From contig NZ_JACSPN010000008.1 of assembly GCF_015142735.1 (NCBI RefSeq), forward strand, positions 27,488 through 91,487: 64,000 nt of DNA, in the 5' to 3' direction. The position numbers and the translations under genes were made by a program. The notes below the pieces were generated by a model. It had not been told where the DNA came from. It saw only the letters and a list, made by a program, of their open reading frames with translations, and ran no database searches. Source of the DNA: Oerskovia douganii (lineage in GTDB: Bacteria; Actinomycetota; Actinomycetes; Actinomycetales; Cellulomonadaceae). Shown here one piece after another: positions 6,502 through 32,000 of this stretch (positions within the stretch are counted from its first letter, which is position 1; the number at the start of each line of letters is the position of its first letter).

Positions 6502-7679
6502 GTCGGTTCTCCTGGGGGTGGGGTGGGACGGCTGGGGTCGGGACGGGCAGCGGGTGCGGGACCGGCGAGGCTCAGCCACGGCGGGCGGGCGACGAGGGCG
6601 CCGGGCCCCGTCGCGAGCCGGCGGGCGAGGTGGAGCGCGCCGTCGAGCGGGGTGCCCGCGGAGGGGACGAGCTCGGCGTCGGGGCGCAGGGCCGCGAACC
6701 GGCGCGCGAGAGCGCCCGTCAGGGACGGGCCGGCCGCGAGGACCCCGCCCGTGGCGGCGGCCAGCGGCGGCAGCGCCGGGACGAGGGCCGCCGCGAGCGA
6801 CTCGGCGAGGTGCCGACCCGCCTCGGTGAGGATCTGCACGGCCGCCGGGTCTCCCGCGGCGGCCGCGGCTGCGACGTCGGGCGTGAAGGAACCGAGGACC
6901 TGGGCACGGTCGGCGCGCGTGTAGAGCTGGGCGGGCCACGTGGTGGCGGGACCGAACCTGGCCGTGGCGGCGTCCAGGAGCGCCGCGGACGCTCCTGTCG
7001 CGCGGCCGTCGTGCGCGGCGAGCGCGGCACGCAGGCCGTGCGCGCCGATCCACGTGGCCGACCCGAGGTCGCCCAGGAGGTGGCCCCAGCCGTCGACCCG
7101 CTGCCACGTCCCGGCGAGGTCGGTGCCCAGGGCGATCGTGCCGGTCCCGACCGCGACCACGGCCCCCGCGCGCCCGCCCAGTGCACCGAGGTGCGCGGTC
7201 ACGGCATCGGCGGCGACGGCCGTGCGCTCGGGCCCGAGGCTCGTCCGGAGCGCCTCGTGGACCGCGGACGGGTCCGGGACGAGGGTCGCGACGCCCGTCG
7301 CGCCGACCGCGGCGGCGGCGACCGTGGGCCGGCCGTCGACGGCTCCGGAGCACCGGGCGACGAACGCGGTCGCGAGGTCGTGCACGACGTCGGCGACGTC
7401 GCTGCCGCCCGGGCCGACCGAGACGGCGCGACCCGTGAGGGTCACCCGCTGCCCGTGATCGTCGTCCGCCGCCGCTGCCGCCCCCGCCGCAGGCGCGGGC
7501 GCGGGCGCGGGCGCGGGCGCCCCGGCTGCCGGAGCGGACGGGACCAGGGCTGCGGCGAGGCGGCTGCCGCTCCCTCCGACGTCGATCGCGACGACCCAGC
7601 GGGGGGAGGCCGGGGAAGCGGCTCGCGGGGCTGCTTGGGCCGGTGTGCGGTCCGGTGCGGCGTCGGGCGTCCTGGTCAC
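6498..7679 (-). CDS. BadF/BadG-type amino-sugar kinase (GlcNAc/MurNAc kinase-like)
   Basis: 393 residues of the ASKHA fold. The phosphate-1 motif VVAIDVGGSGSRLAAALV is near residue 30, with VGATGVATL, the GTGTIALGTDLAG loop and GWGHLLGDLGSATWIG following, as in N-acetylglucosamine kinase and bacterial MurK. It would phosphorylate free MurNAc and/or GlcNAc at C6 in the cytoplasm, supplying MurQ. A low-complexity Ala-Pro linker encoded by GCGGGC-type repeats (~7490-7530) is inserted after the first strand, which is unusual in a kinase core. GTG or later ATG starts are possible at the low-complexity N-terminus. It overlaps the RpiR gene by ATGA and is the first gene of its operon. Confidence 0.82.
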   Translation of the reverse strand: MTRTPDAAPDRTPAQAAPRAASPASPRWVVAIDVGGSGSRLAAALVPSAPAAGAPAPAPAPAPAAGAAAAADDDHGQRVTLTGRAVSVGPGGSDVADVVHDLATAFVARCSGAVDGRPTVAAAAVGATGVATLVPDPSAVHEALRTSLGPERTAVAADAVTAHLGALGGRAGAVVAVGTGTIALGTDLAGTWQRVDGWGHLLGDLGSATWIGAHGLRAALAAHDGRATGASAALLDAATARFGPATTWPAQLYTRADRAQVLGSFTPDVAAAAAAGDPAAVQILTEAGRHLAESLAAALVPALPPLAAATGGVLAAGPSLTGALARRFAALRPDAELVPSAGTPLDGALHLARRLATGPGALVARPPWLSLAGPAPAARPDPSRPTPPPGEPT

Positions 7680-7688
7680 GCCTCATTG

Positions 7689-7714
7689 TGGCATGAATTT
7701 TCAGACAGATGCCA
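7689..7714. promoter_or_regulatory. Candidate operator upstream of the kinase operon
   Basis: In an AT-rich island within GC-rich DNA, TGGCAT (7689-7694) and ATGCCA (7709-7714) form perfect inverted arms 14 bp apart. Between them lies a second palindrome, TGAATTTTCA (7694-7703), resembling the TGAA/TTCA half-sites bound by several RpiR-family regulators. The site begins 9 bp from the kinase start, where a repressor would block its transcription. Confidence 0.5.
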
Positions 7715-7908
7715 GAATATGGAGAAAAGCGCCACGGTTCACCCGGTGTCGCCGCGTCCGACGCGTCGGTCGCCCGACGCAGGGCGCGCTCCCGAGGGGG
7801 CCCGCTGCCCGGAGGCTACTCCTCGTGTGGGGTACGTCACCAGGCCTCGGTCGGACGGGCGACCGGCGGAACGGCAGCTCCCCTCGCGCGACACGTACCG
7901 TGGAGCCC

Positions 7909-8958
7909 ATGAGAGGCGAGTACAAGGTTCCCGGTGGCAAGCTCGTGGCGGTCGACGTCGAGACGGACGACGGGAGGCTGTCCCGCGTCGCGCTGAGCGG
8001 AGACTTCTTCCTCGAGCCCGACGACGCGCTCGACGACATCAACGCGGCGCTGACCGGCCTGCCCGAGACGTCGACCGTGGCCGACCTGACCCGCGCGGTC
8101 GAGGCGGTCCTCACGGACGACATCACCATGGTCGGATTCTCGCCCGAGGCCGTCGCGATCGCCGTGCGCCGGGCGCTCGGGCACGCGACCGGCTGGGACG
8201 ACCACGTGTTCGAGATCATCCACGAGGGCCCCGAGCAGCCCGCGATGCACCTCGCGCTCGACCAGGTCCTCACCGAGGAGCTCGACGCGGGTCGACGCGG
8301 TCCGACCCTGCGCATCTGGGAGTGGGGGGCGCCCGCCGTCATCATCGGGTCGTTCCAGTCCCTCAGGAACGAGGTGGACCCCGAGGGGGCCGCGAAGCAC
8401 GGCATCACCGTGGTGCGCCGGATCTCGGGCGGCGGCGCCATGTTCGTCGAGCCGGGCAACACCATCACCTACTCCTTGACGGTCCCCGCCTCGCTCGTCG
8501 AGGGCCTGAGCTTCGAGCGCTCGTACGCGTTCCTCGACGACTGGGTGCTGGGCGCGCTCGCCGACGTCGGCGTGAACGCCACGTACAAGCCGCTCAACGA
8601 CATCGCGTCCCCGGCCGGGAAGATCGCGGGCGCCGCGCAGAAGCGCCTGCGCGGGGGAGCGGTGCTGCACCACGTGACCATGGCGTACGACATCGACGCC
8701 GACAAGATGCTCGAGGTCCTGCGCATCGGCCGCGAGAAGATGAGCGACAAGGGCACCAAGAGCGCGAACAAGCGCGTCGACCCGGTGCGCTCGCAGACCG
8801 GCATGGCGCGCGAGGAGGTCATCGAGGCCTTCAAGGCGCACTTCCGCTCGCGGTACCGCACGGTCGACGGTGCGGTGACGCCCGAGGAGCGGGCACAGGC
8901 CGAGGAGCTCGTCCGGACGAAGTTCGGCACCGAGGAGTGGACCGCGCGCGTGCCGTGA
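7909..8958 (+). CDS. lplA: Lipoate-protein ligase family protein
   Basis: 349 residues in two parts. Residues ~1-85 resemble the small LplA accessory (C-terminal-like) domain placed at the N-terminus. The catalytic BPL/LplA domain spans ~105-300, with AMHLALDQVL, the RRISGGGAMF nucleotide/lipoyl-adenylate motif and the NDIASPAGKIAGAAQKR lysine loop. It should attach lipoate (or octanoate) to E2 and GcvH domains. The ATG at 7909 follows a short GGAG-like site. It lies alone between the two arms of the amino-sugar locus and ends at a strong hairpin, so it is probably its own transcription unit. A link to muramic acid use is not evident. Confidence 0.87.
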   Translation: MRGEYKVPGGKLVAVDVETDDGRLSRVALSGDFFLEPDDALDDINAALTGLPETSTVADLTRAVEAVLTDDITMVGFSPEAVAIAVRRALGHATGWDDHVFEIIHEGPEQPAMHLALDQVLTEELDAGRRGPTLRIWEWGAPAVIIGSFQSLRNEVDPEGAAKHGITVVRRISGGGAMFVEPGNTITYSLTVPASLVEGLSFERSYAFLDDWVLGALADVGVNATYKPLNDIASPAGKIAGAAQKRLRGGAVLHHVTMAYDIDADKMLEVLRIGREKMSDKGTKSANKRVDPVRSQTGMAREEVIEAFKAHFRSRYRTVDGAVTPEERAQAEELVRTKFGTEEWTARVP

Positions 8959-8968
8959 CGCGCTGAGG

Positions 8969-9006
8969 GCGCGCCCCGGCCCGCGCGGACGCGGGCCGGG
9001 GCGCGC
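8969..9006 (+). terminator. GC-rich hairpin terminator after the lipoate ligase
   Basis: A perfect 17-bp stem (8969-8985 with 8990-9006) closes a 4-nt loop 10 nt after the stop codon. There is no T-tract. It separates the ligase from the transporter operon. Confidence 0.75.
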
Positions 9007-9124
9007 TCCGGCGTGCGGCCGCACCGCGGTCCCTGGCGCGCCGAGGTCACCAACAGGTCACAACTTCTCGCCGGGCTTCCTTCTGCCCGGCCGTGGCGGT
9101 AATCTTCACGACAACCCAGCCTGA

Positions 9125-9139
9125 TGTAAGTTTGTTTCA
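9125..9139. promoter_or_regulatory. Candidate RpiR-type site upstream of the transporter operon
   Basis: An AT-rich stretch contains TGTAA and TTTCA as an imperfect inverted repeat (4 of 5) with a 5-nt spacer, about 100 nt before the binding-protein start. It shares TTTCAGA with the candidate operator region at 7694-7705 upstream of the regulator's own operon. This is the best candidate for joint control of both arms, but the match is short. Confidence 0.35.
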
Positions 9140-9242
9140 GAGTCGAAGGGTGCCGACTGTCCGGCGCCCGTGCGAACGATCAGGTCCGCAGGGACGAACG
9201 GCTGGCCGCGACGCGGCCGCCGACCAGAAAGGAAGTCACGGC

Positions 9243-10550
9243 ATGCAGCGACGCAGCACGGTGGCCGTCACGGGCACACTCCTCCTGGCGCTCGGCCTCA
9301 CCGCGTGTGGCGGCGGGGACAACGGCGGCGGCGAGGCCGCGGGGGACGCAGCCTCCGCCGACCACTCCGGCGAGACCCTCACGGTCTGGATCATGGAGGG
9401 CACCAACCCCGACAGGGACGCGTTCTTCGACGAGGTCACCACCGCTTTCAAGGAAGAGACCGGTGCAGACCTCCAGATCGAGTTCCAGCCGTGGGCCAGC
9501 GCCCACGACAAGTTCACGACCTCCATCGCGGGCAACACCACCCCGGACGTCGCGGAGCTCGGCACCACGTGGACCGGAGAGTTCGCCGACGTCGGCGCAC
9601 TGACCGACCTGTCCGACAAGATCAAGGAAGCGGGCCTCGAGGAGGACCTCGTCCCCGGTCTGGTCGAGTCCGCGACGCTCGACGGAGCCCAGTACGGCAT
9701 GCCCTGGTACGCCGGGGTGCGCTCGGTGGTCTACCGCAAGGACCTCTTCGAGGCGGCGGGCATCGAGGTCCCGACCACCTGGGCCGAGCTCCAGGCCGCG
9801 GGCGAGGCCCTCAAGGCCGCGAACCCCGGCCTGATCCCCTTCCCCGTCGCGGGCGACAGCCAGTACGGCGCCATGCCCTTCGTCTGGGGCGCCGGCGGCG
9901 ACCTGGCCGCCAAGGACGGCGACACCTGGACGTCCGAGATCGCCTCTGCCGACTCCGTCAAGGGGCTCGAGTTCTACACGGGCCTCGCGACCAGCGCGGG
10001 ACTGTCGACCGCGGCTGCCACGACGTGGAAGGAGACGGATCTCCTGTCCAACTTCGAGCAGGGCAACGTCGGCATGATGATCTCCGGCAGCTGGACCCCC
10101 GGCAAGATCGTCGCGGACGTCCCGGACATGGCCGACAAGATCGGCGCGTTCCCCATCCCGGGCGAGACCGAGGGCCTCTCGGACTCCTTCCTGGGAGGGT
10201 CGCACCTGGGTGTCTTCGCGGCCAGCGAGAAGCAGGACCTCGCGTGGGAGTTCGTCGAGATGATGACGACGGGCGAGTTCGCCGAGGCGTGGGGTGAGCA
10301 GTCGGGCTACTTCCCGGGGCAGACCTCGCTCCTGGAGAAGGTCATCGAGGCGAACGACCCGCTCGTCGCACCGTTCGCCCAGCAGATGGTCGAGGCCGGC
10401 GCCTCCGTCCCCGTGACGCCGCTCTACGGTCAGATCCAGGGCAAGAAGACGGTCGAGACCATGCTGCAGTCGATCCTCTCGGGCAGCGCCACGGTGCAGG
10501 AGGCCGCCGACACCGCGGCCGCCGACATGAACGAGACCTTCGGGTCCTGA
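9243..10550 (+). CDS. Sugar ABC transporter substrate-binding lipoprotein
   Basis: 435 residues of the extracellular solute-binding protein family 1. A lipoprotein signal peptide (MQRRSTVAVTGTLLLALGL then TAC, acylated Cys22) is followed by a Gly/Glu-rich linker and a periplasmic-binding fold from ~45 (TLTVWIMEGTNPDRDAFF, then FKEETGADLQIEFQPW). A longer in-frame start at 9093 is rejected because the ATG at 9243 has a strong GAAAGGAAG site and an N-terminal signal. It is first of six genes with spacings of 7 nt or overlaps. The downstream NagZ, AnmK and MurQ suggest the ligand is a MurNAc- or GlcNAc-MurNAc-containing sugar (inference). Confidence 0.92.
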   Translation: MQRRSTVAVTGTLLLALGLTACGGGDNGGGEAAGDAASADHSGETLTVWIMEGTNPDRDAFFDEVTTAFKEETGADLQIEFQPWASAHDKFTTSIAGNTTPDVAELGTTWTGEFADVGALTDLSDKIKEAGLEEDLVPGLVESATLDGAQYGMPWYAGVRSVVYRKDLFEAAGIEVPTTWAELQAAGEALKAANPGLIPFPVAGDSQYGAMPFVWGAGGDLAAKDGDTWTSEIASADSVKGLEFYTGLATSAGLSTAAATTWKETDLLSNFEQGNVGMMISGSWTPGKIVADVPDMADKIGAFPIPGETEGLSDSFLGGSHLGVFAASEKQDLAWEFVEMMTTGEFAEAWGEQSGYFPGQTSLLEKVIEANDPLVAPFAQQMVEAGASVPVTPLYGQIQGKKTVETMLQSILSGSATVQEAADTAAADMNETFGS

Positions 10551-20227: not shown

Positions 20228-20539
20228 TCAGAAGCGCGGGAGGCGCCACAAGTGGTCGCTCGTGCGACCGTCGACAGCTGTAGAGAGCGTGCGGCGCCCG
20301 TGGTGATCGGTCCGGGCGACGACGTCGGCCTGGTGGTGGTTGCGTTCGTCGAAGGTCCGGAAGCGTTCGCCGGACCTGATACGTCGGTGGACTGCGACGA
20401 CGCTCGTGGCTGTCGTCGGACCCGTGGTCGTCACCGAGTGGAGGACGGCGACGAGGTGCTCGACCTGCGGTCCCACGGCGCACACGCCGTCGCCGTCGGG
20501 GTCGAGCGGCATGGTGCGGATCGCACGAATGAACGGCAT
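20228..20539 (-). CDS. DUF3892-like small protein, copy 2
   Basis: 103 residues. The C-terminal half has QADVVARTDHHGRR and VDGRTSDHLWRLPRF, matching the upstream copy (QADVVAKISTAGTR and ADGRETNNLLNLPRS) and the DUF3892 pattern ending in an L-P motif. It is more diverged than copy 1. It starts 6 nt after copy 1 stops, so both form one operon divergent from the restriction-modification genes. Function unknown; DUF3892 proteins are small, cytoplasmic and often found near accessory genes. Confidence 0.7.
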   Translation of the reverse strand: MPFIRAIRTMPLDPDGDGVCAVGPQVEHLVAVLHSVTTTGPTTATSVVAVHRRIRSGERFRTFDERNHHQADVVARTDHHGRRTLSTAVDGRTSDHLWRLPRF

Positions 20540-20545
20540 GCGCGG

Positions 20546-20824
20546 TCAGGAGCGAGGGAGGTTCAGGAGATTGTTGGTCTCCCGGCCGTCGGCGACGGTG
20601 GCGATGTAGCGGGTCCCCGCCGTCGAGATCTTGGCGACGACGTCGGCCTGTGTCTGCTGGGGGCTGAGGGACCGGAACGTGTGTCCCTCGGTGATCCATG
20701 CGTGGACCTGTTCACGCGTGGTCGTCGTGAGGGGGCCGGCAGATGTCGTGGACCACCCGACGTGGGTGATGTGCTGGTTCGAGGTGCCAGGGTCGGCGAC
20801 GTAGACGGAGCGGATGTAGTTCAT
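20546..20824 (-). CDS. DUF3892-like small protein, copy 1
   Basis: 92 residues, close to the usual ~90 for the family. It starts with ATG behind a good AGAGGAA site. The chain runs from YIRSVYVADPG through VHAWITEGHTFR to ADGRETNNLLNLPRS. It is the first gene of the pair, reading away from the restriction-modification operon, with the palindrome at 20903-20920 in the shared 194-bp upstream region. No membrane segment, no signal peptide, no Cys. Confidence 0.8.
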   Translation of the reverse strand: MNYIRSVYVADPGTSNQHITHVGWSTTSAGPLTTTTREQVHAWITEGHTFRSLSPQQTQADVVAKISTAGTRYIATVADGRETNNLLNLPRS

Positions 20825-20902: not shown

Positions 20903-20920
20903 TGATAAGGCTGCTTATCA
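20903..20920. promoter_or_regulatory. Perfect 7-bp inverted repeat, candidate operator
   Basis: TGATAAG and CTTATCA face each other across GCTG in the divergent region between the DUF3892 pair and the HTH/pseudo-methyltransferase gene. It is an AT-rich island within GC-rich DNA. Position and symmetry fit a dimeric regulator site, and the next gene downstream encodes a helix-turn-helix. Confidence 0.5.
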
Positions 20921-21018
20921 AAGGACGCCGGTCGAAAGGAGAGATCCGCGCTACTGTCTTTCCAGCGAGCTCGCCCGACGAGCTCGCTCACCTACCGGTC
21001 CTGACGAAGGGAGCTGCT

Positions 21019-23058
21019 GTGCCGTCGGTCCTCGACTCCCTCACGCTGTCCCTGCCGGACATCGCCGAGCTGGCGCACGTGCAGCGCCCCGTGGTCTCCA
21101 TGTGGCGCCGGCGGTACGCGACGGCGGCCTCGCCGTTCCCGGAGGCGGTCGCTACCCGTCGTGACCAGCAGCGGTTCCGAGCCTCCGAGGTGACGGCGTG
21201 GATCGAGCGCAGCGGACTCGGCCGAAACCCCTCGTTCGCGGCCGACGTCGCGATGAGGGCCGCGCTGGACGAGGTCCCCGGCCTCGACGCGGACGTTGCG
21301 CTCGACGGCCTCACGTCGCTGCTCTACGTCAAGGCGCAGACGGGTGAGCTCCTCGGTGCGCTCGGTCGTGCAGAGGTGCTCGACCTCGCCGACGAGGTGG
21401 ACCCCGACGACCACCTGGCCTACTCGGAGATCGAGGCGCTGGGCGACCGGCTGGGCGACCTGTGCGAGCTGGCCGACACGGCGGCCGACGCCGCCTACAC
21501 ACCGGCGGGCGCACTGGAGGCCGTCCTGCTCGACCGGCACCGGGCCGGACGCAGGACGCTCACCGAGTCGGCAGCATCCGAGGGAGCCCTCGACGTCGTG
21601 GGCAGGATCGTCCTGGCGCTCACGTCCGGGCGCGGGCCGCTCACGCTCGCCAACCCGCATGCCGACTGCGGCGACCTGCTGGTGGCAGCGGTCCGGGCAG
21701 GGAGCGACGCGAACGGTGACCACGACGCCCCGGCCTGCGCCGTGCCCGACGCGCGGACGGATCCCGCGACCCGGCTCGCGCGCAGGCGCCTGGGTGTCCT
21801 CGGCGTCCGTGTGCTGGACCTCGACGCCGACGACGCCGTGGGCCACGCCGTCTCGCCCGGCGCGACGATCGTGGCACAGCTCCCTCCCGTCGGCAGCCCC
21901 CCGTGGTCCGACGACGACGTCCTGCGCGCGGTCGAGACCCTCGCCGTGCAGCGCGAGCCCGGCCGGTTCGCCGTCGTGCTGGGGCCCGCGAGCGCGCTCG
22001 TGGGAGCGGTCGACGGCGAGGCGGAGAAGCTCCGGTCCAGCCTGCTGCGCAACGACCAGGTGCGGAGCGTCGTCGAGCTCCCTGCGGGGCTCCTCCCCGG
22101 GCGTTCGCGCGAGCGCCTCGCGATCTGGGTCCTGGGCGACCCGCCCGCCGACGTCGGGCTCGCCGAGCAGTGGACGACCGTCTCGGACCTCGCGGGCGAG
22201 CGCGTCACCGGGGGAGCGCTCGACGAGGGCGTGATCGACGACCTCGTGACCGACGTCGTCGCCGCTCAAGGGACTCGCAGGGACGTCCAGGGGCACGCCT
22301 TCCGCTTCACGCGTTTCGCCTACACGTCCTCGCTCGTCGCCTCACGGAGCGACCTCTCGGTGGACTTCCGTCGGCTCCGGGTGGGCCGGCGCGACGACGG
22401 CGGTCGTGCGGCCGTGCGTGCGCACGAGCTCGCCACGGGGCTCGGGCTCGCGGGGGCGGAGTCCGTCGTCCCCGGCCCGGGGCGAGACCCGCGCCGCGAG
22501 ACGCTCCGGTCGGTCGAGGCTCGCGGTGGCGTGCGCAGGATCTCCGGGAACCGGCTGGACCCGCGTGCCATCGGTACGGTCGGCGAGGTGCCGGTCGTCG
22601 GCCCGGCCGAGCTGACCGGTGACGTGATCCTCGGCGAGCGGCGCATGGACCGGCTCGCATTCTCGACGCTCCCCGCCGCCCGGTACACCGAGCCTGGCGA
22701 CGTGATCTTCTGCACCGCGCCCTACCCGGCCGCGGTGGTCGACCACGTCGGACTGTCCGTGGTGGAGTTCCCGGCGCAGGTGCTGCGCATCGACCGGGCG
22801 CGAGCCCCTGGCCTCGTCCCGCACGTCCTCGCCGAGGACATCTCGTCCCAGCGTGCGACCGCCAAGCGGTGGCGCACGTGGGAAGTGCGCGAGGTCCCCG
22901 AGGACCAGGTGAGCGCTCTCGAAGAGCTGCTCGCCGCCGTCGGGCAGCGCGAAACCCTGGTGCTCGACGAGGCCCGACGCCTCGCCGAGCTCCGCACGAC
23001 CCTGACCCGGGGCGTCGCCGACGCCCTCATCCAGCTCCGAACGGTGGACAATGCCTGA
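21019..23058 (+). CDS. HTH / degenerate HsdM-like / specificity-like fusion protein
   Basis: 679 residues. (1) ~8-66: an AlpA/MerR-like DNA-binding helix-turn-helix (LPDIAELAHVQRPVVSMWRRR, closing with RFRASEVTAWIE, shown as two blocks). (2) ~90-420: a fold following HsdM order, with a YTP element at 160 and a region equivalent to the SAM motif at 210-221 reading LANPHADCGDLL where active enzymes have DPACGSGG. The catalytic NPPF/Y position reads QLPP at 287-290, and VVELPAGLLPGRSRERLAIWVLG matches the HsdM C-terminal strand (in parts). (3) ~500-679: like one HsdS target-recognition domain and helix. Key catalytic residues are absent, so methylation is unlikely. The GTG at 21019 has a GAAGGGAG site; the open frame from 20902 runs through the operator. 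It overlaps hsdM by 8 nt. It may be a regulator or an extra specificity subunit. Confidence 0.75.
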   Translation: MPSVLDSLTLSLPDIAELAHVQRPVVSMWRRRYATAASPFPEAVATRRDQQRFRASEVTAWIERSGLGRNPSFAADVAMRAALDEVPGLDADVALDGLTSLLYVKAQTGELLGALGRAEVLDLADEVDPDDHLAYSEIEALGDRLGDLCELADTAADAAYTPAGALEAVLLDRHRAGRRTLTESAASEGALDVVGRIVLALTSGRGPLTLANPHADCGDLLVAAVRAGSDANGDHDAPACAVPDARTDPATRLARRRLGVLGVRVLDLDADDAVGHAVSPGATIVAQLPPVGSPPWSDDDVLRAVETLAVQREPGRFAVVLGPASALVGAVDGEAEKLRSSLLRNDQVRSVVELPAGLLPGRSRERLAIWVLGDPPADVGLAEQWTTVSDLAGERVTGGALDEGVIDDLVTDVVAAQGTRRDVQGHAFRFTRFAYTSSLVASRSDLSVDFRRLRVGRRDDGGRAAVRAHELATGLGLAGAESVVPGPGRDPRRETLRSVEARGGVRRISGNRLDPRAIGTVGEVPVVGPAELTGDVILGERRMDRLAFSTLPAARYTEPGDVIFCTAPYPAAVVDHVGLSVVEFPAQVLRIDRARAPGLVPHVLAEDISSQRATAKRWRTWEVREVPEDQVSALEELLAAVGQRETLVLDEARRLAELRTTLTRGVADALIQLRTVDNA

Positions 23059-24748
23059 CGACGCCCCGACCCTGTTCGACGTCCCCACGACCCCGAAGAA
23101 AGCAGGACCAGTGCCTCCCCGCACCAAGGCAGCAGCCACGAGCAAGGCGGCTCCCTCAGCTCCTTCGTCAATGAAGGAGCTCAAGGACACGCTGTGGAAG
23201 GCCGCGGACAAGCTCCGCGGCTCCATGGACGCCTCGCAGTACAAGGACGTGATCCTGGGGCTCGTGTTCCTCAAGTACGTCTCGGACGCGTTCGAGGAGC
23301 GTCGCGGCGAGATCCTCGCGGAGCTCGCCGCCGACGGCCTGAGCGAGGAGCAGAGCCAGCAGTTCCTCGAGGACATCGACGAGTACACGAGCCGCGGGGT
23401 CTTCTGGATCCCCCTCCAGGCGCGCTGGGGCTACCTCGCGGAGAACGCGAAGGGCCGGCCGGCGGCCATAGGCGAGCCGTTCGCACCGATCGGGCAGCTG
23501 ATCGACGATGCCATGGTCCACATCATGGAGTCCAACCCGTCGCTCGCGGCCACGCTGCCGCGCATCTTCAACCGTGACAACGTGGACCAGCGACGCCTGG
23601 GCGAGCTGCTCGACCTGTTCAACTCGACGCGCTTCACGGGCGAGGGCGCGTCCAAGGCGCGCGACCTGCTGGGCGAGGTGTACGAGTACTTCCTGGAGAA
23701 GTTCGCGCGTGCCGAGGGCAAGCGCGGCGGCGAGTTCTACACGCCCGCCGGCGTGGTGCAGGTCCTCGTGGAGGTCCTCGAGCCGTACAGCGGGCGCGTG
23801 TACGACCCGGCGTGCGGGTCGGGCGGCATGTTCGTGCAGGCCGAGAAGTTCATCGAGAAGCACGGCGGCAGCCCGCAGGAGATCTCGGTCTACGGCCAGG
23901 AGCTCAACGAGCGCACGTGGCGCCTCGCGAAGATGAACCTCGCGATCCACGGTCTCACGGGTAACCTGGGGCCCCGCTGGGGTGACACGTTCGCGCGCGA
24001 CCAGCACGCGGACACCCAGATGGACTACGTCATGTCCAACCCGCCGTTCAACATCAAGGACTGGTCGCGCTCGAAGTCGGACCCGCGCTGGCGCTTCGGT
24101 GTTCCGCCCGTGGGCAATGCGAACTACGCGTGGATCCAGCACATCCTCTCCAAGCTGACGCCTACCGGGTCTGCGGCCGTGGTCATGGCCAACGGGTCCA
24201 TGTCGTCCAACTCGGGCGGCGAGGGCGAGATCCGCGCGCAGATCGTCGAGGCCGACCTCGTGAGCTGTATGGTCGCGCTGCCGACCCAGCTCTTCCGCTC
24301 CACGGGCATCCCCGTGTGCGTCTGGTTCTTCGCCAAGGACAAGACGGCAGGCGCTCGCGGATCGGTCGACCGCACCGGGCAGGTGCTGTTCATCGACGCA
24401 CGCAACCTCGGCTACATGGTCGACCGCGCCGAGCGTGCGCTGTCCGACGAGGACATCGCGAAGATCGCGGGGACCTACCACGCGTGGCGCGGCACGCCCT
24501 CGGCGGTTGCCGCGGGCCTGGAGTACGACGACGAGCTGGGCTTCGCCCGCTCCGTGAGCCTGGCCGAGATCAAGGACGCGGGATACGCGCTCACGCCCGG
24601 ACGCTACGTCGGGGCCGCCGAGGTCGAGGACGACGGCGAGCCCATCGAGGACAAGATCGCGCGGCTGACGGGCGAGCTCTTCGAGCAGTTCGAGGAGTCG
24701 GCACGGCTCGAGGCCGTGGTGCGGGAGCAGCTGGGGAGGGTTCAGTGA
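23051..24748 (+). CDS. hsdM: Type I restriction-modification N6-adenine methyltransferase
   Basis: 565 residues. After a Lys/Ala/Pro-rich leader (~1-40), the HsdM helical N-domain (~41-180) is followed by the methyltransferase core. The core has GGEFYTPAGVV at ~227, motif I DPACGSGG at 252-259 and catalytic NPPF at 330-333. All expected catalytic residues are present, unlike the preceding protein. It methylates adenine in the bipartite site read by HsdS and is also a core part of the restriction complex. ATG overlaps the preceding stop by 8 nt; its own stop overlaps the hsdS GTG by GTGA. Confidence 0.96.
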   Translation: MPDDAPTLFDVPTTPKKAGPVPPRTKAAATSKAAPSAPSSMKELKDTLWKAADKLRGSMDASQYKDVILGLVFLKYVSDAFEERRGEILAELAADGLSEEQSQQFLEDIDEYTSRGVFWIPLQARWGYLAENAKGRPAAIGEPFAPIGQLIDDAMVHIMESNPSLAATLPRIFNRDNVDQRRLGELLDLFNSTRFTGEGASKARDLLGEVYEYFLEKFARAEGKRGGEFYTPAGVVQVLVEVLEPYSGRVYDPACGSGGMFVQAEKFIEKHGGSPQEISVYGQELNERTWRLAKMNLAIHGLTGNLGPRWGDTFARDQHADTQMDYVMSNPPFNIKDWSRSKSDPRWRFGVPPVGNANYAWIQHILSKLTPTGSAAVVMANGSMSSNSGGEGEIRAQIVEADLVSCMVALPTQLFRSTGIPVCVWFFAKDKTAGARGSVDRTGQVLFIDARNLGYMVDRAERALSDEDIAKIAGTYHAWRGTPSAVAAGLEYDDELGFARSVSLAEIKDAGYALTPGRYVGAAEVEDDGEPIEDKIARLTGELFEQFEESARLEAVVREQLGRVQ

Positions 24749-25887
24749 TCGTCGAGTTGCAATCGGTCAGCCTGGGCGAGTTGGTCGACAACTTCGATTC
24801 ACGTAGACGCCCGGTCAAGTCCTCCGAGCGTACGGCAGGGCCATATCCATACTATGGTGCTTCTGGGGTGGTCGACCACGTAGCGGATTTCATTTTCGAT
24901 GGCGAGTACTTGCTGGTCTCGGAGGATGGCGAGAACCTTCGCTCGCGCGCCCAGCCAATTGCTTTTGTTGTTGATGGCAAGTTCTGGCCCAACAACCATG
25001 CGCACGTACTTCGGGGGCGCGAGAGGTTCGACACTCGCTTTCTTTCATACCTGCTCGCGACAACTGATATAACTGGCTACCTCACTGGCTCGGCGCAGCC
25101 AAAGCTCACGCGAGGCTCAATGGACTCGATTATGTTGTCGGTTCCGCCTCCCAGGGATCGCCAAGCGATCGCCGAGGTGCTGGGAGCGCTCGACGACAAG
25201 ATCGCGGCCAACACCAAGCTTGCTTCGAAGGTTGATTCACTGTCGACGCTTATATTCGAGGCGAAAAGTGCGGAAACTGAGGGCGATGCTTCCTTGGGTG
25301 ACGTGGCAACGCTTGTCCTGGGGGGCACCCCAAGCCGTTCACGTGGTGACTACTGGGCCGAGGGGACGATCGCATGGCTTGCATCTGGCAAGGCCAATGA
25401 GTCGCGCGTGTTTGCACCAACGGCATTCATTACGGAAGAGGCATACCGCGCAAGCGCGACGAAGATGATGCCGCGCGGCGCTACGGTGCTTGCGATCACC
25501 GGGGCAACGCTTGGTCAGATTGCGCGACTCGAGATTGAGGCGTGTGGCAATCAGTCGCTGGTTGGAATTTGGGGGGATGGGCCGGAGCTCACTGATTGGC
25601 TCCATTTTGCTGTTCGGTCGCGAGTTGGCGTCTTGCTTCAAGGGGCGACGGGAGCGGCGCAGCAGCACGTAAACAAGAATGACGTGGCGGCGCTTCGAGT
25701 GCCGCTTATCCCTCGACGTGAACTCCTGGCATGGGCTGCCCAAGTCTCGCCACTGCTGGCGGTCGCGAGTATGGCTGGTGAGGAGAATCGCTCCCTCGCC
25801 GCCACCCGCGACACCCTGCTCCCGCAGCTCATGTCCGGCAAGCTCCGCGTCAAGGAGGCCGAGCGCATCGTCTCCGAGGTCGCCTGA
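24745..25887 (+). CDS. hsdS: Type I restriction-modification specificity subunit
   Basis: 380 residues with two target-recognition domains, TRD1 (~5-130) and TRD2 (~175-330), each followed by a conserved helix (DRQAIAEVLGALDDKIAANTK; C-terminal TRDTLLPQLMSGKLRVKEAE, both shown in part). It sets the sequence recognised by methylation and cleavage. GTG overlaps hsdM. From about 24780 to 25720 the DNA is visibly AT-richer than its surroundings, with codons otherwise rare here (TTT, ATA, ACA), while both ends return to high GC. This suggests a TRD region exchanged by recombination. The recognition sequence cannot be predicted by eye. Confidence 0.93.
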   Translation: MIVELQSVSLGELVDNFDSRRRPVKSSERTAGPYPYYGASGVVDHVADFIFDGEYLLVSEDGENLRSRAQPIAFVVDGKFWPNNHAHVLRGRERFDTRFLSYLLATTDITGYLTGSAQPKLTRGSMDSIMLSVPPPRDRQAIAEVLGALDDKIAANTKLASKVDSLSTLIFEAKSAETEGDASLGDVATLVLGGTPSRSRGDYWAEGTIAWLASGKANESRVFAPTAFITEEAYRASATKMMPRGATVLAITGATLGQIARLEIEACGNQSLVGIWGDGPELTDWLHFAVRSRVGVLLQGATGAAQQHVNKNDVAALRVPLIPRRELLAWAAQVSPLLAVASMAGEENRSLAATRDTLLPQLMSGKLRVKEAERIVSEVA

Positions 25888-25918
25888 CCGCGATCCGCGA
25901 CGCCGCCGCGATCCTGTG

Positions 25919-25983
25919 TGATCGAGATACGGCCAACGGGGGTCGTAGCGCCTGATCAGCCCCCGTTGGCCGCATCTCGATCA
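25919..25983. repeat. Long palindrome after hsdS
   Basis: 24-nt arms (25919-25942 and 25960-25983) match at all but one position around a 17-nt loop, beginning 32 nt after the hsdS stop. It lacks a T-tract. It could end the hsdXMS transcript or mark a boundary between that operon and the small cargo genes before hsdR. Confidence 0.8.
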
Positions 25984-26076
25984 CCGCTCATCTCGACCGA
26001 CCCTCCCGGAGGCGGCGATGTCGTCGTCGCCCGATCTCCCCTGCCCGCCGCACCCTTCACCCGACAGCAGGAAGTC

Positions 26077-26760
26077 ATGAACCATCACGCCGGCGTCACT
26101 GACGTGGCGCCCGAGGCGGGTGCCGCCCCCGCCGGACCCGATCCACGAACGTGCCCGGCGCCGTCGGGCCGGAAGCGGTGGCTGCTGCTGGTCGTCGTCC
26201 TCCCGATTGGCGCCCTCGGACTCCTCGGAGGACCCGCCGTGGCGGTCGCCCTGCTCTCGAGCCTCGTCTGGTTCGTGGTGAGCGCTGTCCTCTTCGGCCG
26301 ACACCTGGACTACCGTCGCCCACGCCGGCCGCATCGCACGGTCGCGAAGCTGGGACACGTCCGGCGCGAGCCTCCGCGGCAGATCCCGCTGCTCTCGCGG
26401 GTGTGCGTGATCTGTGGCCGGCAGCTTACCAACGGCGAGAGCATGCGAGCCCGGGTCGGCTCGACGTGCATCAAGCGCTACGGCCCGCGCTACGCCCACC
26501 AGGTGAACCCGGACCACGGCGTCTGGGTCGCCGAGATGGTTCGCGCGCGGGCCGATCAGGCGGAACGCCAGGCTCGTCTCAACGTCGAGTTCGACCGCGC
26601 GACCGCCGCGTACCCGGGGCTCGTCGCGGCCTGGGAGGCCGAGAGAGCATCGGAGACCGGGCGCCTCCGACGGGATGCCCGTCGGCGAGCCGCCCCGATG
26701 CTCGTCTCGTCGATCGCGGCGTGTCTCGCCTCTGTCGTGGTCGCGGAATTCTTCGGATAG
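26077..26760 (+). CDS. DUF6011-type zinc-knuckle membrane protein
   Basis: 227 residues. Two hydrophobic helices (~35-75) follow a 33-residue polar N-terminus. A Cys module RVCVICGRQLTNGESMRARV with a further Cys in GSTCIKRYG (shown in parts, ~110-140) matches the DUF6011 pattern, probably binding zinc. A basic Ala/Arg-rich helix and a final hydrophobic segment (~200-225) follow. The ATG has a CAGGAAG site. It lies between hsdS and hsdR; a functional link is not shown. An open frame from 25918 is rejected because it reads through the palindrome. Confidence 0.72.
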   Translation: MNHHAGVTDVAPEAGAAPAGPDPRTCPAPSGRKRWLLLVVVLPIGALGLLGGPAVAVALLSSLVWFVVSAVLFGRHLDYRRPRRPHRTVAKLGHVRREPPRQIPLLSRVCVICGRQLTNGESMRARVGSTCIKRYGPRYAHQVNPDHGVWVAEMVRARADQAERQARLNVEFDRATAAYPGLVAAWEAERASETGRLRRDARRRAAPMLVSSIAACLASVVVAEFFG

Positions 26761-26854
26761 TTCACCCGGCCGACCCTGTCCGACGGTGACGGAGGTGACT
26801 AATATCGGGCCCGCTGAGCACAAGACGATCGAAGCGTAGAAGGAGCGGAACGCG

Positions 26855-27253
26855 GTGCGGAGAACAGCTGGGCTCGTCGCCTTGTCATTCCTGGGACTCC
26901 TGACGACGGGCTGCGCCGCCTACGTGCCGGGCGGAAGCGGGTCCCATGGAATCTGGGCCGACGACACTGACGACTTCGGAAACTACGAAGAGCCTGCGAT
27001 CTACGTACCAGAAGAGGGTGTCCCGGACGAGTACGACCTGGAATACCAGTGGGAACAGATGGCGCCCGAACAGCCGGCAGCCTGGTCGTGCTATCTCTCG
27101 ATCACCTTCAACGAGGACTGGCACGACGACGTCGAGTGCAGCAACGGAATCGACTTCGACAGGCCGTACCTGCGTGAGTGGGACGGCTTCGTGACCGAGG
27201 ACGAGCTCATGCAGTCCGCCCTGGAGTACGAGAACGCGCTCAACGGGGGCTGA
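26855..27253 (+). CDS. Small acidic lipoprotein, unknown
   Basis: 132 residues. A signal peptide MRRTAGLVALSFLGLLTTGC gives acylated Cys20. The mature part is very acidic and Tyr/Trp-rich (EEPAIYVPEEGVPDEYDLEY), with two Cys (in WSCYLSIT and VECSNG) likely paired. GTG start behind AAGGAGCGGAA. No family recognised. Codon use is less biased than the neighbours. Converges on the DUF2510 gene 35 nt away. Confidence 0.75.
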   Translation: MRRTAGLVALSFLGLLTTGCAAYVPGGSGSHGIWADDTDDFGNYEEPAIYVPEEGVPDEYDLEYQWEQMAPEQPAAWSCYLSITFNEDWHDDVECSNGIDFDRPYLREWDGFVTEDELMQSALEYENALNGG

Positions 27254-27288
27254 ACATGTCTTCGGTGAGCGCCTCCGACCGGAACCTG

Positions 27289-27573
27289 CTACGTGCAGTA
27301 GTGCGGGCTCTCTCCGCAGACGACTCCCTGAGCGATATTCGCGAAGAACGCAACGAGGGCGACGACGCCGAGGATCATCGCGACGATCACGCACAGGAGG
27401 AGGATCGCGCCCACCACGATCAGCACGATCGAAACCGTGCTCAGCTTCCGGGGGCTTGGAGACGGCACGCTGGTCTGGACGGCCCGTGAGTGCTGGGTCC
27501 ACTGCTGCCCGTCGAACCAGCGCACCAGCCGCGGGTCGTACGGGTCGGGGTACCAGCCGGGCTGGTGGGTCAC
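27289..27573 (-). CDS. DUF2510 domain membrane protein
   Basis: 94 residues. The N-terminal DUF2510 motif QPGWYPDPYDPRLVRWFDGQQW precedes a Ser/Pro linker and one transmembrane helix (~47-80), with two Cys in the short C-tail (CGESPHYC). DUF2510 is a short WYPDP-type domain at the N-terminus of many actinobacterial membrane proteins, role unknown. ATG start. A 231-bp gap separates it from the next, divergent gene. Confidence 0.88.
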   Translation of the reverse strand: MTHQPGWYPDPYDPRLVRWFDGQQWTQHSRAVQTSVPSPSPRKLSTVSIVLIVVGAILLLCVIVAMILGVVALVAFFANIAQGVVCGESPHYCT

Positions 27574-27804
27574 GGTGTTCTCCTCGGCTGTGATGGCGAC
27601 TTCCGTGCTCAGGTGCTCGGCGTCGACGGCTGGGATGCGGCTCGCCGGGCACCGCCGACTGTCACCTGCAGACGCTACCGGCCATCGCGATCTATCTGAT
27701 CATCCCCTTATCGCAGCACTCGTCGCGCCCCACCCCTGCGCCGCAGAGACTGAGCACGGGGGCGATCCCCTGAACCCCGTTCCACCCTGATCCCAGGAGA
27801 AGCC

Positions 27805-28362
27805 ATGACTGACCAGCCCACCCCGCCCGTCCCGGACAGCGGCGAACCCGCTGCCGACGTTCCGCCGCCCCCGTCGCCAACCGACGCACAGGTCTGGGCG
27901 GCGTCGACGGGAGAGGGGAGCCCCGCCGTCGGGCCGGGGAAGCGACCCACATGGGTGCTGCCCGTCGTGACGGGAGTGATCGGACTCGTCGTCGGTGCCG
28001 GCGGCATGGCCGCGATCGGCGCGGGGCAGGCTGCGGCAGCGAGGACGGCTCAGAGCGCGGTGCTCACGGACGCTGTCGAGACCTGCGACCTCGCAGGCGA
28101 TCCGTGGTTCGTCGTGGCCGACGAAGGATCCACCCTGACGTTCGACAACAAGGGGGAGGACCAGCTCACCGGCGGCGCGCTCGAGGATCTCGTCTGTGTG
28201 CTCGACGCGCTCGAGGCGCCGTCCAGCGTGCTCTCCCACATGGGGCAGACGACGTCCATGGACGGGCGCCAGGAGGAGAGCTGGGACGGCATCACGGTCG
28301 CCTGGTCATATCACCCGGACCGGGGGATGGACGGGGTCGTGACGGTGGAGGCGGCGTTGTGA
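27805..28362 (+). CDS. Single-pass membrane protein, unknown
   Basis: 185 residues. A Pro/Asp-rich N-terminus (~1-48), one transmembrane helix (~49-75, VLPVVTGVIGLVVGAGG) and an extracytoplasmic domain (~80-185). The domain has two Cys (ETCDLAG and DLVCVLDAL) and a Thr/Ser/Asp surface. The ATG follows CCCAGGAGAAGCC, a strong site. It overlaps the next small gene by 1 nt (TGATG). No family recognised. Confidence 0.75.
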   Translation: MTDQPTPPVPDSGEPAADVPPPPSPTDAQVWAASTGEGSPAVGPGKRPTWVLPVVTGVIGLVVGAGGMAAIGAGQAAAARTAQSAVLTDAVETCDLAGDPWFVVADEGSTLTFDNKGEDQLTGGALEDLVCVLDALEAPSSVLSHMGQTTSMDGRQEESWDGITVAWSYHPDRGMDGVVTVEAAL

Positions 28363-28718: not shown

Positions 28719-31700
28719 ATGAAGCTCACCGAGGACGCCTGGGAACACCTGGCCCTCGACGACCTGGGCGAGCTCTTCTGGACCGTGAAGCACGGCAAGG
28801 AGATCGCGCCCGGGGCGAGCGCCGCCGTCGGGCCGGACGGGCACCCCGTCCCCGAGCGCGAGTCGTGGGACGAGCTCCTCATCCCCACCCGCCTACGCAC
28901 CGCGCTGCGCGCTCTCAACCCGGACGTGCCGCGCGAGTACCTCGACCAGGCGCTCGCCGCGATCGTCGCCCCGACGTCGAACGACGCGATCGCCGAGAAT
29001 AAGCGCGTCCACGACTTCCTGACCGACGGGTTCCGTGGCATCAGCTACATCGACGTCGAGGGCATTGAGCAGAACCCGACCATCCGCCTCGTGAGCAGCG
29101 AACCGTCGGAGAACGACTGGCTCGCGGCGAACCAGGTCACGGTCGTGCGCGGCGACGTCGAACGGCGCTTCGACGTGGTCCTGTACCTCAACGGGATGCC
29201 CGTCAGCGTGATCGAGCTCAAGAACGCGGGCACCAGGGCAGCCGACCTCGCCGCGGCCCACGCCCAGGTCGCGACCTACGTCCGTGAGCTGCCGCTGGTC
29301 TTCCGTTTCGTCGTGCTGACCGTCCTCTCCGACGGCATCACCGCGCGCTACGGCACGCCCTTCACGCCGTTCAACCACTTCTCGCCGTGGAACGTCGACG
29401 ACGACGGCCGCCCCGTCGGGCCGTCCGGCCGTCCGGAAGGCGTGCAGGGGCCCGACGGCGACACGCCCGCCGAGGACGAGCCCGTCACCGCGCTGCGGCT
29501 CGCCCTCTACGGGTTGTTCGACCAGCTCCGCTTCCTCCAGCTGCTGCACGGATACGTCGCGTTCGACGAGGGGAGCGAAGGGCTCAGCAAGCGCGTCGCC
29601 AAGCCTCACCAGTACTTCGCGGTCTCCAAGGCGATCGAGAAGACCATCACCGCGGTCGCGTCCGACGGCAAGGCGGGCGTCGTCTGGCACACCCAGGGCT
29701 CGGGCAAGTCCATGGAGATGGAGCTCTACACCAACCAGGTCATGCGGCACCCTCGGTTGCGCAACCCCACGGTCGTCGTCGTGACCGACCGCACCGAGCT
29801 CGACGGCCAGCTCTACGAGACCTTCCGGCGCAGCCAGCTGCTGCCCGAGGAACCCCGTCAGATCCGCCGTCGCGAGGAGCTGCGGACCGAGCTCGCCGGC
29901 CGGGTGACCGGCGGCATCTACTTCACGACCCTGCAGAAGTTCGGGCTCTCGCCCGCCGAGAAGCAGGCAGGCACCAAGCACCCGCTGCTGTCCGACCGGC
30001 GCAACATCGTCGTCGTCGTCGACGAGGCCCACCGCAGCCACTACGACGACCTCGACGGCTACGCCTGGCACCTCAAGAGCGCCCTCCCGCACGCCACGCT
30101 CATCGCGTTCACCGGGACACCCATCAGCACCGCCGAACGTGACACGCGCGCGGTGTTCGGCGAGGACATCGACGTCTACGACCTCTCGCGCGCAGTGCAC
30201 GACGGCGCCACGGTCCCCGTGTACTTCGACTCCCGTCTCGTGAAGGTCGACTTCGTCGACGGCGCCGACGAGTCCACGATCGACGCGGCCGCCGACGAGA
30301 TGACCACGGGGCTCGACGACGCCGAGCGCCGCCGCATCGAGTCGAGCGTCGCGGTCGTCAACGCGATCTACGGTGCCCCGGCCCGACTGGAGGCGCTCGC
30401 GGCCGACCTCGTCGCGCACTGGGAAGGGCGCCGGGCCGCGATGTTCGAGTCGCTTGGCCGCGCCGGTCACGAACGCACCCCGGGCAAGGCGCTGGTCGTC
30501 GGCGCGACCCGCGAGATCTGTGCACGGCTCTACAGCGAGATCGTCACCCTGCGCCCCGACTGGCACTCCGACGACCTGGCCACCGGAAAGATCAAGGTCG
30601 TCTACTCGGGGACGCCGTCGGATCCCGCGCCCATCAGCGATCACGTGCGGCGCGACAGCGAGAACGCGGCCATCAAGCAGCGGCTCAAGGACCCCGACGA
30701 CGAGCTCGAGATCGTGATCGTCAAGGACATGATGCTCACGGGGTTCGACTCCCCGCCCCTGCACACCCTCTACCTCGACCGGCCCATCAAGGGCGCTCTG
30801 CTCATGCAGACGCTCGCCCGCGTCAACCGCACGTTCCGCGGCAAGACCGCAGGCCTGCTGGTCGCCTACGCCCCCGTCGCGGAGAACCTCGCCGCCGCGC
30901 TGCGCGAGTACTCGCCCCAGGACCAGAAGACCCGACCCCTCGGACGCCGGGTCGAGGAAGCCGTCGCGCTGGCCGAGCTGCTCGTGACCCAGGTGCGTGC
31001 GACGCTCTCCGGGTTCGACTGGCGCGCACGGCTCGCCGTGGACGACAAGCGCGCGTACGTCCTGGCCGTCCACGCGACCGTGAACCACCTGCGCGACCCG
31101 GGCACGGTCGGCAACCGGCCGCAGGACGTCGAGGACGGCAGCGACACGCTCGGCGCGACCTTCCGCCGTCAGGCGGGTCAGCTGCACAGGGCCTGGGCCC
31201 TCGCCGGGGGAGCGGACCACCTCACCGACATCGCCGACGACGTGCGGTTCTTCGAGGAGGTGCGCGTCTGGATGGGGAAGTTCGACGCCGAGGACCGCCA
31301 GGCGCGGGGCGAGGCGATCCCCGACGACGTCCAGCGCATGCTGAACCAGCTCGTCGCCGAGAGCGTCGACTCGGGCGAGGTGCTCGACATCTACCAGGCG
31401 GCCGGCATGGAGTCGCCGCGCATCGACGAGATCGACACGTCCTTCCTCGCGACGGCCACGCACGCCGAGAACCCGCACCTCGCGATCGAGGCGCTCCGCA
31501 AGGTGATCCAGGAGGAGTCGCGCGCCGCGACCCGTAACAACCTGGTGCGCCAGCGCGCGTTCTCCGACCGGCTCAACGAGCTCATGACGCGGTACACCAA
31601 CTCCAACCTCACGTCCGCCGAGGTGATCGCAGCACTCATCGAGATGGCGCACGAGGTCTCGGCCGAAGGTGACCGCGGTGCCCGGTTCTCCCCGCCCCTC

Positions 31701-32000
31701 ACGAGCGACGAGCTCGCGTTCTACGACGCGGTCCGGGCCAACGAGTCGGCCGTCGAGGTCCAGGGGGACGGGGTCCTCGCCGACATCGCCCGCGAGCTCC
31801 TCACAGTCCTGCGGCGCGACGTGCGCACCGACTGGACCGTGCGCGAGGACGTGCGTGCCAAGCTGCGCTCCTCGATCAAGCGGCTCCTCGTCAAGCACGG
31901 CTACCCGCCGGACAAGCAGCCCGGAGCGATCAAGCTCGTCATGGAACAGATGGAGTCGATGGCCCCGCGCTACGCGGAGCGCGAGGAGGGGGCGGCGTGA
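28719..32000 (+). CDS. hsdR: Type I restriction enzyme R subunit
   Basis: 1093 residues. The PD-(D/E)xK nuclease domain (~1-240) shows FDVVLYLNGMPVSVIELKN at ~150-168. A superfamily-2 helicase motor follows, with HTQGSGKSMEMELY (Walker A, ~325), VVVDEAHRSHYDD (DEAH box, ~433) and FTGTPIS (motif III). Motif VI reads ARVNRTFRGK. A helical C-domain contacts HsdM/HsdS. The enzyme translocates DNA from an unmethylated site and cuts at a distance. The ATG at 28719 has a GGAGG site; the longer frame from 28635 has a Ser/His/Pro-rich extension and no site. Unlike the usual compact hsdRMS, ~2.8 kb of cargo separates it from hsdS. Confidence 0.95.
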   Translation: MKLTEDAWEHLALDDLGELFWTVKHGKEIAPGASAAVGPDGHPVPERESWDELLIPTRLRTALRALNPDVPREYLDQALAAIVAPTSNDAIAENKRVHDFLTDGFRGISYIDVEGIEQNPTIRLVSSEPSENDWLAANQVTVVRGDVERRFDVVLYLNGMPVSVIELKNAGTRAADLAAAHAQVATYVRELPLVFRFVVLTVLSDGITARYGTPFTPFNHFSPWNVDDDGRPVGPSGRPEGVQGPDGDTPAEDEPVTALRLALYGLFDQLRFLQLLHGYVAFDEGSEGLSKRVAKPHQYFAVSKAIEKTITAVASDGKAGVVWHTQGSGKSMEMELYTNQVMRHPRLRNPTVVVVTDRTELDGQLYETFRRSQLLPEEPRQIRRREELRTELAGRVTGGIYFTTLQKFGLSPAEKQAGTKHPLLSDRRNIVVVVDEAHRSHYDDLDGYAWHLKSALPHATLIAFTGTPISTAERDTRAVFGEDIDVYDLSRAVHDGATVPVYFDSRLVKVDFVDGADESTIDAAADEMTTGLDDAERRRIESSVAVVNAIYGAPARLEALAADLVAHWEGRRAAMFESLGRAGHERTPGKALVVGATREICARLYSEIVTLRPDWHSDDLATGKIKVVYSGTPSDPAPISDHVRRDSENAAIKQRLKDPDDELEIVIVKDMMLTGFDSPPLHTLYLDRPIKGALLMQTLARVNRTFRGKTAGLLVAYAPVAENLAAALREYSPQDQKTRPLGRRVEEAVALAELLVTQVRATLSGFDWRARLAVDDKRAYVLAVHATVNHLRDPGTVGNRPQDVEDGSDTLGATFRRQAGQLHRAWALAGGADHLTDIADDVRFFEEVRVWMGKFDAEDRQARGEAIPDDVQRMLNQLVAESVDSGEVLDIYQAAGMESPRIDEIDTSFLATATHAENPHLAIEALRKVIQEESRAATRNNLVRQRAFSDRLNELMTRYTNSNLTSAEVIAALIEMAHEVSAEGDRGARFSPPLTSDELAFYDAVRANESAVEVQGDGVLADIARELLTVLRRDVRTDWTVREDVRAKLRSSIKRLLVKHGYPPDKQPGAIKLVMEQMESMAPRYAEREEGAA

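Follow-up and report, generated by a model that had tools for sequence, protein, structure and literature searches.

Gene X, the subject of this study, most probably encodes a dedicated transcription (auto)regulator of the type I restriction-modification (RM) operon to which it belongs, and which would resemble the C proteins in its logic. All regulatory claims made here for its product, X, are computational. The reason for regarding X as the very probable switch of its operon is an 18-bp site that matches it and is present in front of the gene, usually once per genome, phylum-wide. The features assigned in and around the gene are listed in Table 1, with positions counted in the whole 64,000-nucleotide stretch of Oerskovia douganii DNA that was analysed (the window).

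Table 1. Features of gene X and its operon, with positions in the window
Feature	Position	Strand	Basis
Predicted operator TGATAAGGCTGCTTATCA, consensus YGATAA-N6-TTATCR	20903..20920	.	Present in 84/86 loci; sole perfect copy in the genome
Predicted -10 hexamer (TACTGT), beginning 31 bp past the operator	20952..20957	+	TANNNT spacing in 69/81 loci
Gene X, 679 aa: HTH, then an inactive HsdM fold, then half an HsdS	21019..23058	+	ORF call, alignment, AlphaFold model
MerR/excisionase-type winged HTH (residues 9-65), the best-conserved part of X	21043..21213	+	AlphaFold model, alignment
HsdM-fold domain, residues 70-455, predicted catalytically dead	21226..22383	+	3khk superposition, motif loss in 69/69
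Degenerate SAM motif I, LANPHADCGDLL	21646..21681	+	Family alignment, profile-profile alignment
Motif IV position, QLPP where NPPF/Y is expected	21877..21888	+	Family alignment, profile-profile alignment
Single target-recognition domain (TRD), residues ~490-600	22486..22818	+	Model, 7eew alignment, HsdS profile
Conserved-region (CR) helix of HsdS type, residues ~622-667, probable dimerisation element	22882..23019	+	Modelled helix 628-667; aligned to HsdS C-terminal helix
hsdM, intact (DPACGSGG, NPPF)	23051..24748	+	Profile search
hsdS, two specificity-domain stretches	24745..25887	+	Profile search
Variable cargo that separates hsdS from hsdR: small ORFs, mostly membrane/lipoprotein-like	25918..28362	+	ORF list
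hsdR	28719..32000	+	Profile search

Gene X starts with GTG, with the ribosome site GGGAG ahead of it, and its end is overlapped by 8 nt by the ATG-initiated hsdM; the intact hsdM reported next to it in the initial annotation is present. The hsdM, hsdS and hsdR genes were full length and scored as ordinary type I subunits in profile searches, which together make up a type I RM operon. The spacing between hsdS and hsdR differed from locus to locus among the named loci compared, and in plasmid records X is labelled 'hypothetical protein'. On the other side of gene X, two similar small ORFs of ~90-105 aa (20231-20824, minus strand) run divergently from it and look DUF3892-like by eye; relatives of one of them (20549-20824) were also seen ahead of X in several loci.

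Searched alone against Pfam, NCBIfam, PADLOC and PDB sequences, X gave no family above cut-off, the best family match being N6_Mtase (PF02384) with E=0.044 and 13.5 bits, below the Pfam gathering threshold of 20.4. Profile comparison with alignments, in turn, related X to HsdM with E 8e-6. The comparison of structures that had been suggested for this gene was carried out with an AlphaFold model of good confidence (mean pLDDT 91.6, pTM 0.80, input alignment of 69 sequences), and the model matched an HsdM fold followed by half an HsdS. Residues 69-455 superposed on solved HsdM structures with Z of ~23 (3khk in the VIA comparison: Z 23.8, rmsd 3.9, 357 residues), in agreement with the HsdM order proposed earlier. 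The top-ranked Foldseek hit was 7eew, the HsdM-S1/2 protein of Vibrio vulnificus YJ016 (E 4.7e-16, residues 76-674 aligned), in which, as in X, an HsdM fold continues into a single TRD and a single CR helix, and which we take to have no HTH. The tail of X also matched the operon's own HsdS family in a profile-profile comparison (E 9e-5 over residues 492-678). The C-terminus is therefore HsdS-like, as the initial annotation had it, but it corresponds to half of an HsdS and not to a whole one, with a single TRD and a single helix where HsdS (PF01420) has two of each. The N-terminal HTH was recovered as well: residues 1-73 modelled alone formed a helix-turn-helix, a hairpin wing and a further helix, i.e., the winged-HTH topology of the MerR/excisionase type. 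The nearest folds were those of BldC, NmlR, RacA, CarH and excisionases, with Z of ~6, which is modest and expected for ~55 residues. A PDB search with the HTH alone gave no match with E below 0.001, and the class was assigned from the topology and from the consistent identity of the top matches.

Both signatures of HsdM were reported as lost in the initial annotation, and our alignments agree with this. In the profile-profile alignment with catalytically intact relatives, NPHADCGDLL of X stood opposite DPACGTGHLL, and QLPP stood opposite NPPF. None of the 69 aligned family members had [NDSH]PP[FYW] at the motif IV position, and motif I was degenerate family-wide, with only a relic (ANPHADCGDLL) in X and no DPACGSGG-type motif of PF02384. 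We found no intact catalytic site elsewhere in the chain, nor the active SAM site and catalytic motif of the 7eew type; the Vibrio enzyme, according to the title of its PDB entry, was solved with its SAM product, whereas X is devoid of the catalytic motifs. Catalysis is thus predicted to be lost throughout the X family, which is a phylum-wide family and not a decaying pseudogene.

Active HTH-MTase-half-HsdS proteins with DPACG and NPPF or NPPY exist in Streptomyces-like genomes and others, where they match the PADLOC model PDLC03037 ('Type I methyltransferase'). Comparison with their profile extended over nearly the full length of X, at a probability of 99.8 and with E 2e-30, and their domain order is the same. 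In contrast to X, they keep DPACG and mostly NPPF/Y, and most of them are not followed by hsdM. We rejected a shared operator for these proteins, since the GATAA site was absent from the promoters of those checked. In our best reading, X was derived from active proteins of this kind. One operon (L169:1-6698, minus strand) has at its head an intact HTH-MTase with DPPY but without the tail, then a separate, probable half-HsdS ORF, followed by hsdM, hsdS and hsdR; it resembles the X operon in an unfused and active state and may represent an ancestral arrangement. In another locus, L167, an intact hsdM (8399-10489) stands directly after an active HTH-MTase-half-HsdS gene (6140-8374), with only weak HsdR similarity further on, and this pair is possibly a two-methyltransferase system.

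The search for the same gene beside hsdM in other actinobacteria, recommended by the initial annotation, found X in ~80 named loci or genomes, nearly all of them Actinomycetota, a recurrence that far exceeds chance. In these loci X was placed directly before hsdM wherever the contig allowed it, with few exceptions (L064 without hsdM, L060 and L115 with hsdM separated). These loci were partly picked by an HTH peptide pattern, so the conservation of the HTH among them is inflated, while that of the operator is unaffected; the protein searches in the genome samples were free of this selection. In the sample of 200 genomes of the host's family, X was present in 28. All 27 genomes with an hsdM of at least 67% identity had X beside it, and X was missing from the 6 genomes in which the closest hsdM reached no more than 58% identity. 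In the class-wide sample, an intact X adjoined 12 of 16 full-length hsdM genes of at least 60% identity, tail-like remnants were seen in two cases and nothing in the other two; relatives of this hsdM subfamily without an intact X were also without an intact operator. The linkage of X and hsdM is strong, though not absolute, and we rejected the notion that X is obligate for this hsdM subfamily, which held for the family sample but not for the class sample. In one locus (L218:14-1552) the place of X before hsdM was taken by an apparent HsdS-like ORF and a remnant of the X tail, and the intact operator was absent. A scan of viral contigs found nothing. The one hit in a phage record, MT835479 (L034), is an unannotated and unverified 'Bacteriophage sp.' scaffold obtained from human faecal material that carries all of X, hsdM, hsdS and hsdR along with the operator; we did not count it as phage carriage, and it is probably bacterial sequence. 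A record named Sporosarcina (L067) contains an Arthrobacter-like X operon of 64% GC, either by transfer or as a mislabelled or contaminant contig.

With up to two mismatches to TGATAAN6TTATCA allowed, 84 of 86 loci had the predicted operator upstream of X, in comparison to 6 of 1720 control windows taken from those loci. The 6-bp spacer hardly varied: exact copies with it numbered 78 in front of X and 9 elsewhere in 1.7 Mb, and spacers of 5 and 13 bp were seen in one copy each in front of X. A search of the host genome (4.25 Mb) gave one perfect copy, directly upstream of X. Among the 200 genomes, the exact motif occurred in 21 of the 28 with X (in 20 of them directly upstream of X) and in 2 of the 172 without it, with a Fisher p of 2e-20 that overstates the certainty because related genomes are not independent. 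Of the genomes with X but without the exact motif, G005, G141 and G151 carried versions with one or two mismatches and the -10 in place, G135 and G143 had a different palindrome, and in G127 no operator was found within the stretch searched.

The position of the palindrome relative to a predicted promoter was also conserved. A TANNNT hexamer started 31-33 bp beyond the palindrome in 69 of 81 loci, against a mean of ~0.7 loci per offset, and no conserved -35 element was seen. This fixed distance would centre the palindrome near -53. Several X start codons were located only 6-8 nt past the predicted -10, suggesting leaderless transcripts. On the divergent side, a mirrored -10 was present at 32-33 bp in 31 of the 81 loci. 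Genes that had been separated from X carried their own copy of the operator in front, namely hsdM in L115 and L060 (the latter with a 5-bp spacer at both operator sites) and hsdR in L046. An SMC/RecF-like AAA ATPase gene after hsdR had its own operator and -10 in five Streptomyces (L069, L076, L077, L079 and L086). The secondary copies with the six-base spacer keep the predicted -10 33 bp beyond, and as sequence features they support the predicted promoter geometry. In L206 and L207 no -10 stood at the usual distance from the palindrome. In 30 loci (e.g., L031:11092-11751) a divergent gene for a TM/coiled-coil protein shares the operator region, often with the mirrored -10; its product is possibly a co-regulated accessory.

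The recognition helix of the HTH and the operator varied together. About 98 X genes with an xRxV recognition helix had GATAA half-sites, a few of them with one change, whereas the two with an SRQAV helix had GTTAA and the two with a TRQAV helix had GTTTA; i.e., where the helix went from RPVV to RQAV, the half-site shifted too. TGTTTA-N6-TAAACA was found once in each TRQAV genome, before X. In the tree, the four variant genes were nested within the genes with GATAA, which calls for a minimum of two concordant changes of helix and half-site; the covariation is based on these four genes, perhaps two events. The identity of the TRD did not follow the half-site, being 0.59 between L206 and L207 (same half-site) and 0.57 between L206 and L208 (different half-site). 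This bears on a variant of the regulator reading, in which the palindrome would be read by dimeric TRD tails and not by the HTH domains. The TRD of X is well conserved and half-HsdS dimers do recognise interrupted palindromes, such as GAAN7TTC in the case of EcoR124INT (PMC3320862); the operator changes, in turn, track residues of the HTH, and we consider reading by the TRD improbable.

Among pairs whose hsdM were more than 80% identical (184 pairs), the median identities were 0.59 for the HTH, 0.51 for the TRD and 0.47 for the HsdM fold of X, as compared with 0.76 for HsdR and 0.27 for HsdS. The target of the enzyme seems to change and the DNA-reading parts of X to stay fixed, as one would expect if X regulates through a site that does not change. 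Of the functions offered in the initial annotation, that of a C-protein-like controller gained strong computational support from the operator, the -10 spacing and the covariation, while that of an additional specificity subunit is disfavoured, because the HTH and TRD are the most conserved parts of X and the HsdS of the operon is hypervariable. The role of a further subunit, structural or for specificity, that joins HsdM and HsdS and adds to or alters the DNA recognition of the enzyme would suit a protein with an HsdM fold and half an HsdS that is strictly linked to one hsdM subfamily in the family sample, and PacII shows that one S can serve two different M subunits (PMC9613975). It would leave the operator and its covariation with the HTH unexplained, and we regard it as unlikely. 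Binding of X to the palindrome is deduced, so another host regulator might occupy the site while X does something else. This is very unlikely, given that the site is essentially confined to genomes with X and to the X locus, and that HsdS varies too much to recognise a constant site; the divergent gene was rejected as the regulator, since it is found in 30 loci only and its product is membrane/coiled-coil-like and not DNA-binding-like. Cryptic methyltransferase activity of X is less probable still, to the point of being hardly credible: the HsdM fold is kept and Asp occupies position 212 in 51 of 69 family members, but along with the missing and degenerate motifs, X lacks the residues just past motif IV that active relatives have.

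For X as the regulator of its operon, we propose that the protein forms a two-fold dimer via its half-HsdS tail, like the Vibrio enzyme, and that the two HTH domains of the dimer would read the two half-sites of the palindrome. The dimer bound near -53 would more likely recruit RNA polymerase than obstruct it; with the site centred there and without a conserved -35, X is somewhat more likely to be an activator, and repression or dual action is the less probable but still substantial alternative. Such a feedback loop would couple the expression of X, HsdM, HsdS and HsdR, a role played by C proteins in type II systems. An enzyme-sized body of 679 aa exceeds the needs of regulation, so an additional role is likely, and we speculate that the dead body may contact HsdM or HsdS. 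It is conceivable, although we would not favour it, that the dead HsdM/half-HsdS body acts as a gauge of free HsdM or HsdS, or of the state of assembly or methylation of the restriction enzyme, with the HTH setting operon transcription in response.

C proteins carry an XRE-type HTH and activate their promoter before they repress it, and M.Ecl18kI, M.SsoII and M.EcoRII are active type II m5C enzymes. As in the case of type II C proteins, gene X heads its operon and has a conserved predicted operator upstream, the arrangement used for autoregulation (PMC12707154), but C proteins are small and stand-alone, whereas X is a 679-aa protein with a MerR/excisionase-type HTH. In M.Ecl18kI, M.SsoII and M.EcoRII a transcription factor is likewise fused to a methyltransferase body and regulates the RM genes (PMC12707154); the body of X is instead an apparently inactive one of N6 type, with half an HsdS. 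Dedicated regulators are on record for type I operons, namely RptR (PMC12255303) and, in Mycoplasma, a C-family gene (PMC12707154), and their architectures differ from X. RptR also stands at the operon head and has a conserved site, but it is a small helical repressor whose TAGCTA repeats lie over the -10, so size, site and position all differ (PMC12255303). In the Vibrio vulnificus protein, two copies of M-S1/2 assemble like M2S1 (described in PMC12429846). PacII (M1M2S) is a type I system which, like the X operon, has a second HsdM-like protein, but M1 and M2 are catalytic m6A and m4C modification subunits and the abstract of that report mentions no regulatory role (PMC9613975). For MADS (mad1 HTH, mad2 MTase, mad5 S), the mad1 profile weakly matched the HTH of X-like proteins, but the operon differs, X had no match to the MADS models, and the hsdM and hsdS of the X operon were far below the equivalog cut-offs (hsdM 47 bits vs 720 for MAD2).

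In the open literature that we searched, with incomplete coverage, no published description of X was found, and X is apparently an undescribed but common fourth component of actinobacterial type I RM systems. On present evidence it would be a clear case of a methyltransferase-specificity fusion that lost catalysis and became a dedicated regulator. There is 'surprisingly little information' on the transcriptional control of type I systems (PMC12707154); X brings an operator and a promoter geometry, both predicted, along with naturally occurring specificity variants, which make this question directly testable. The operator sequence is also a usable marker that flags neighbouring genes as probable members of the regulon, such as the AAA ATPase gene in Streptomyces and the divergent membrane protein elsewhere.
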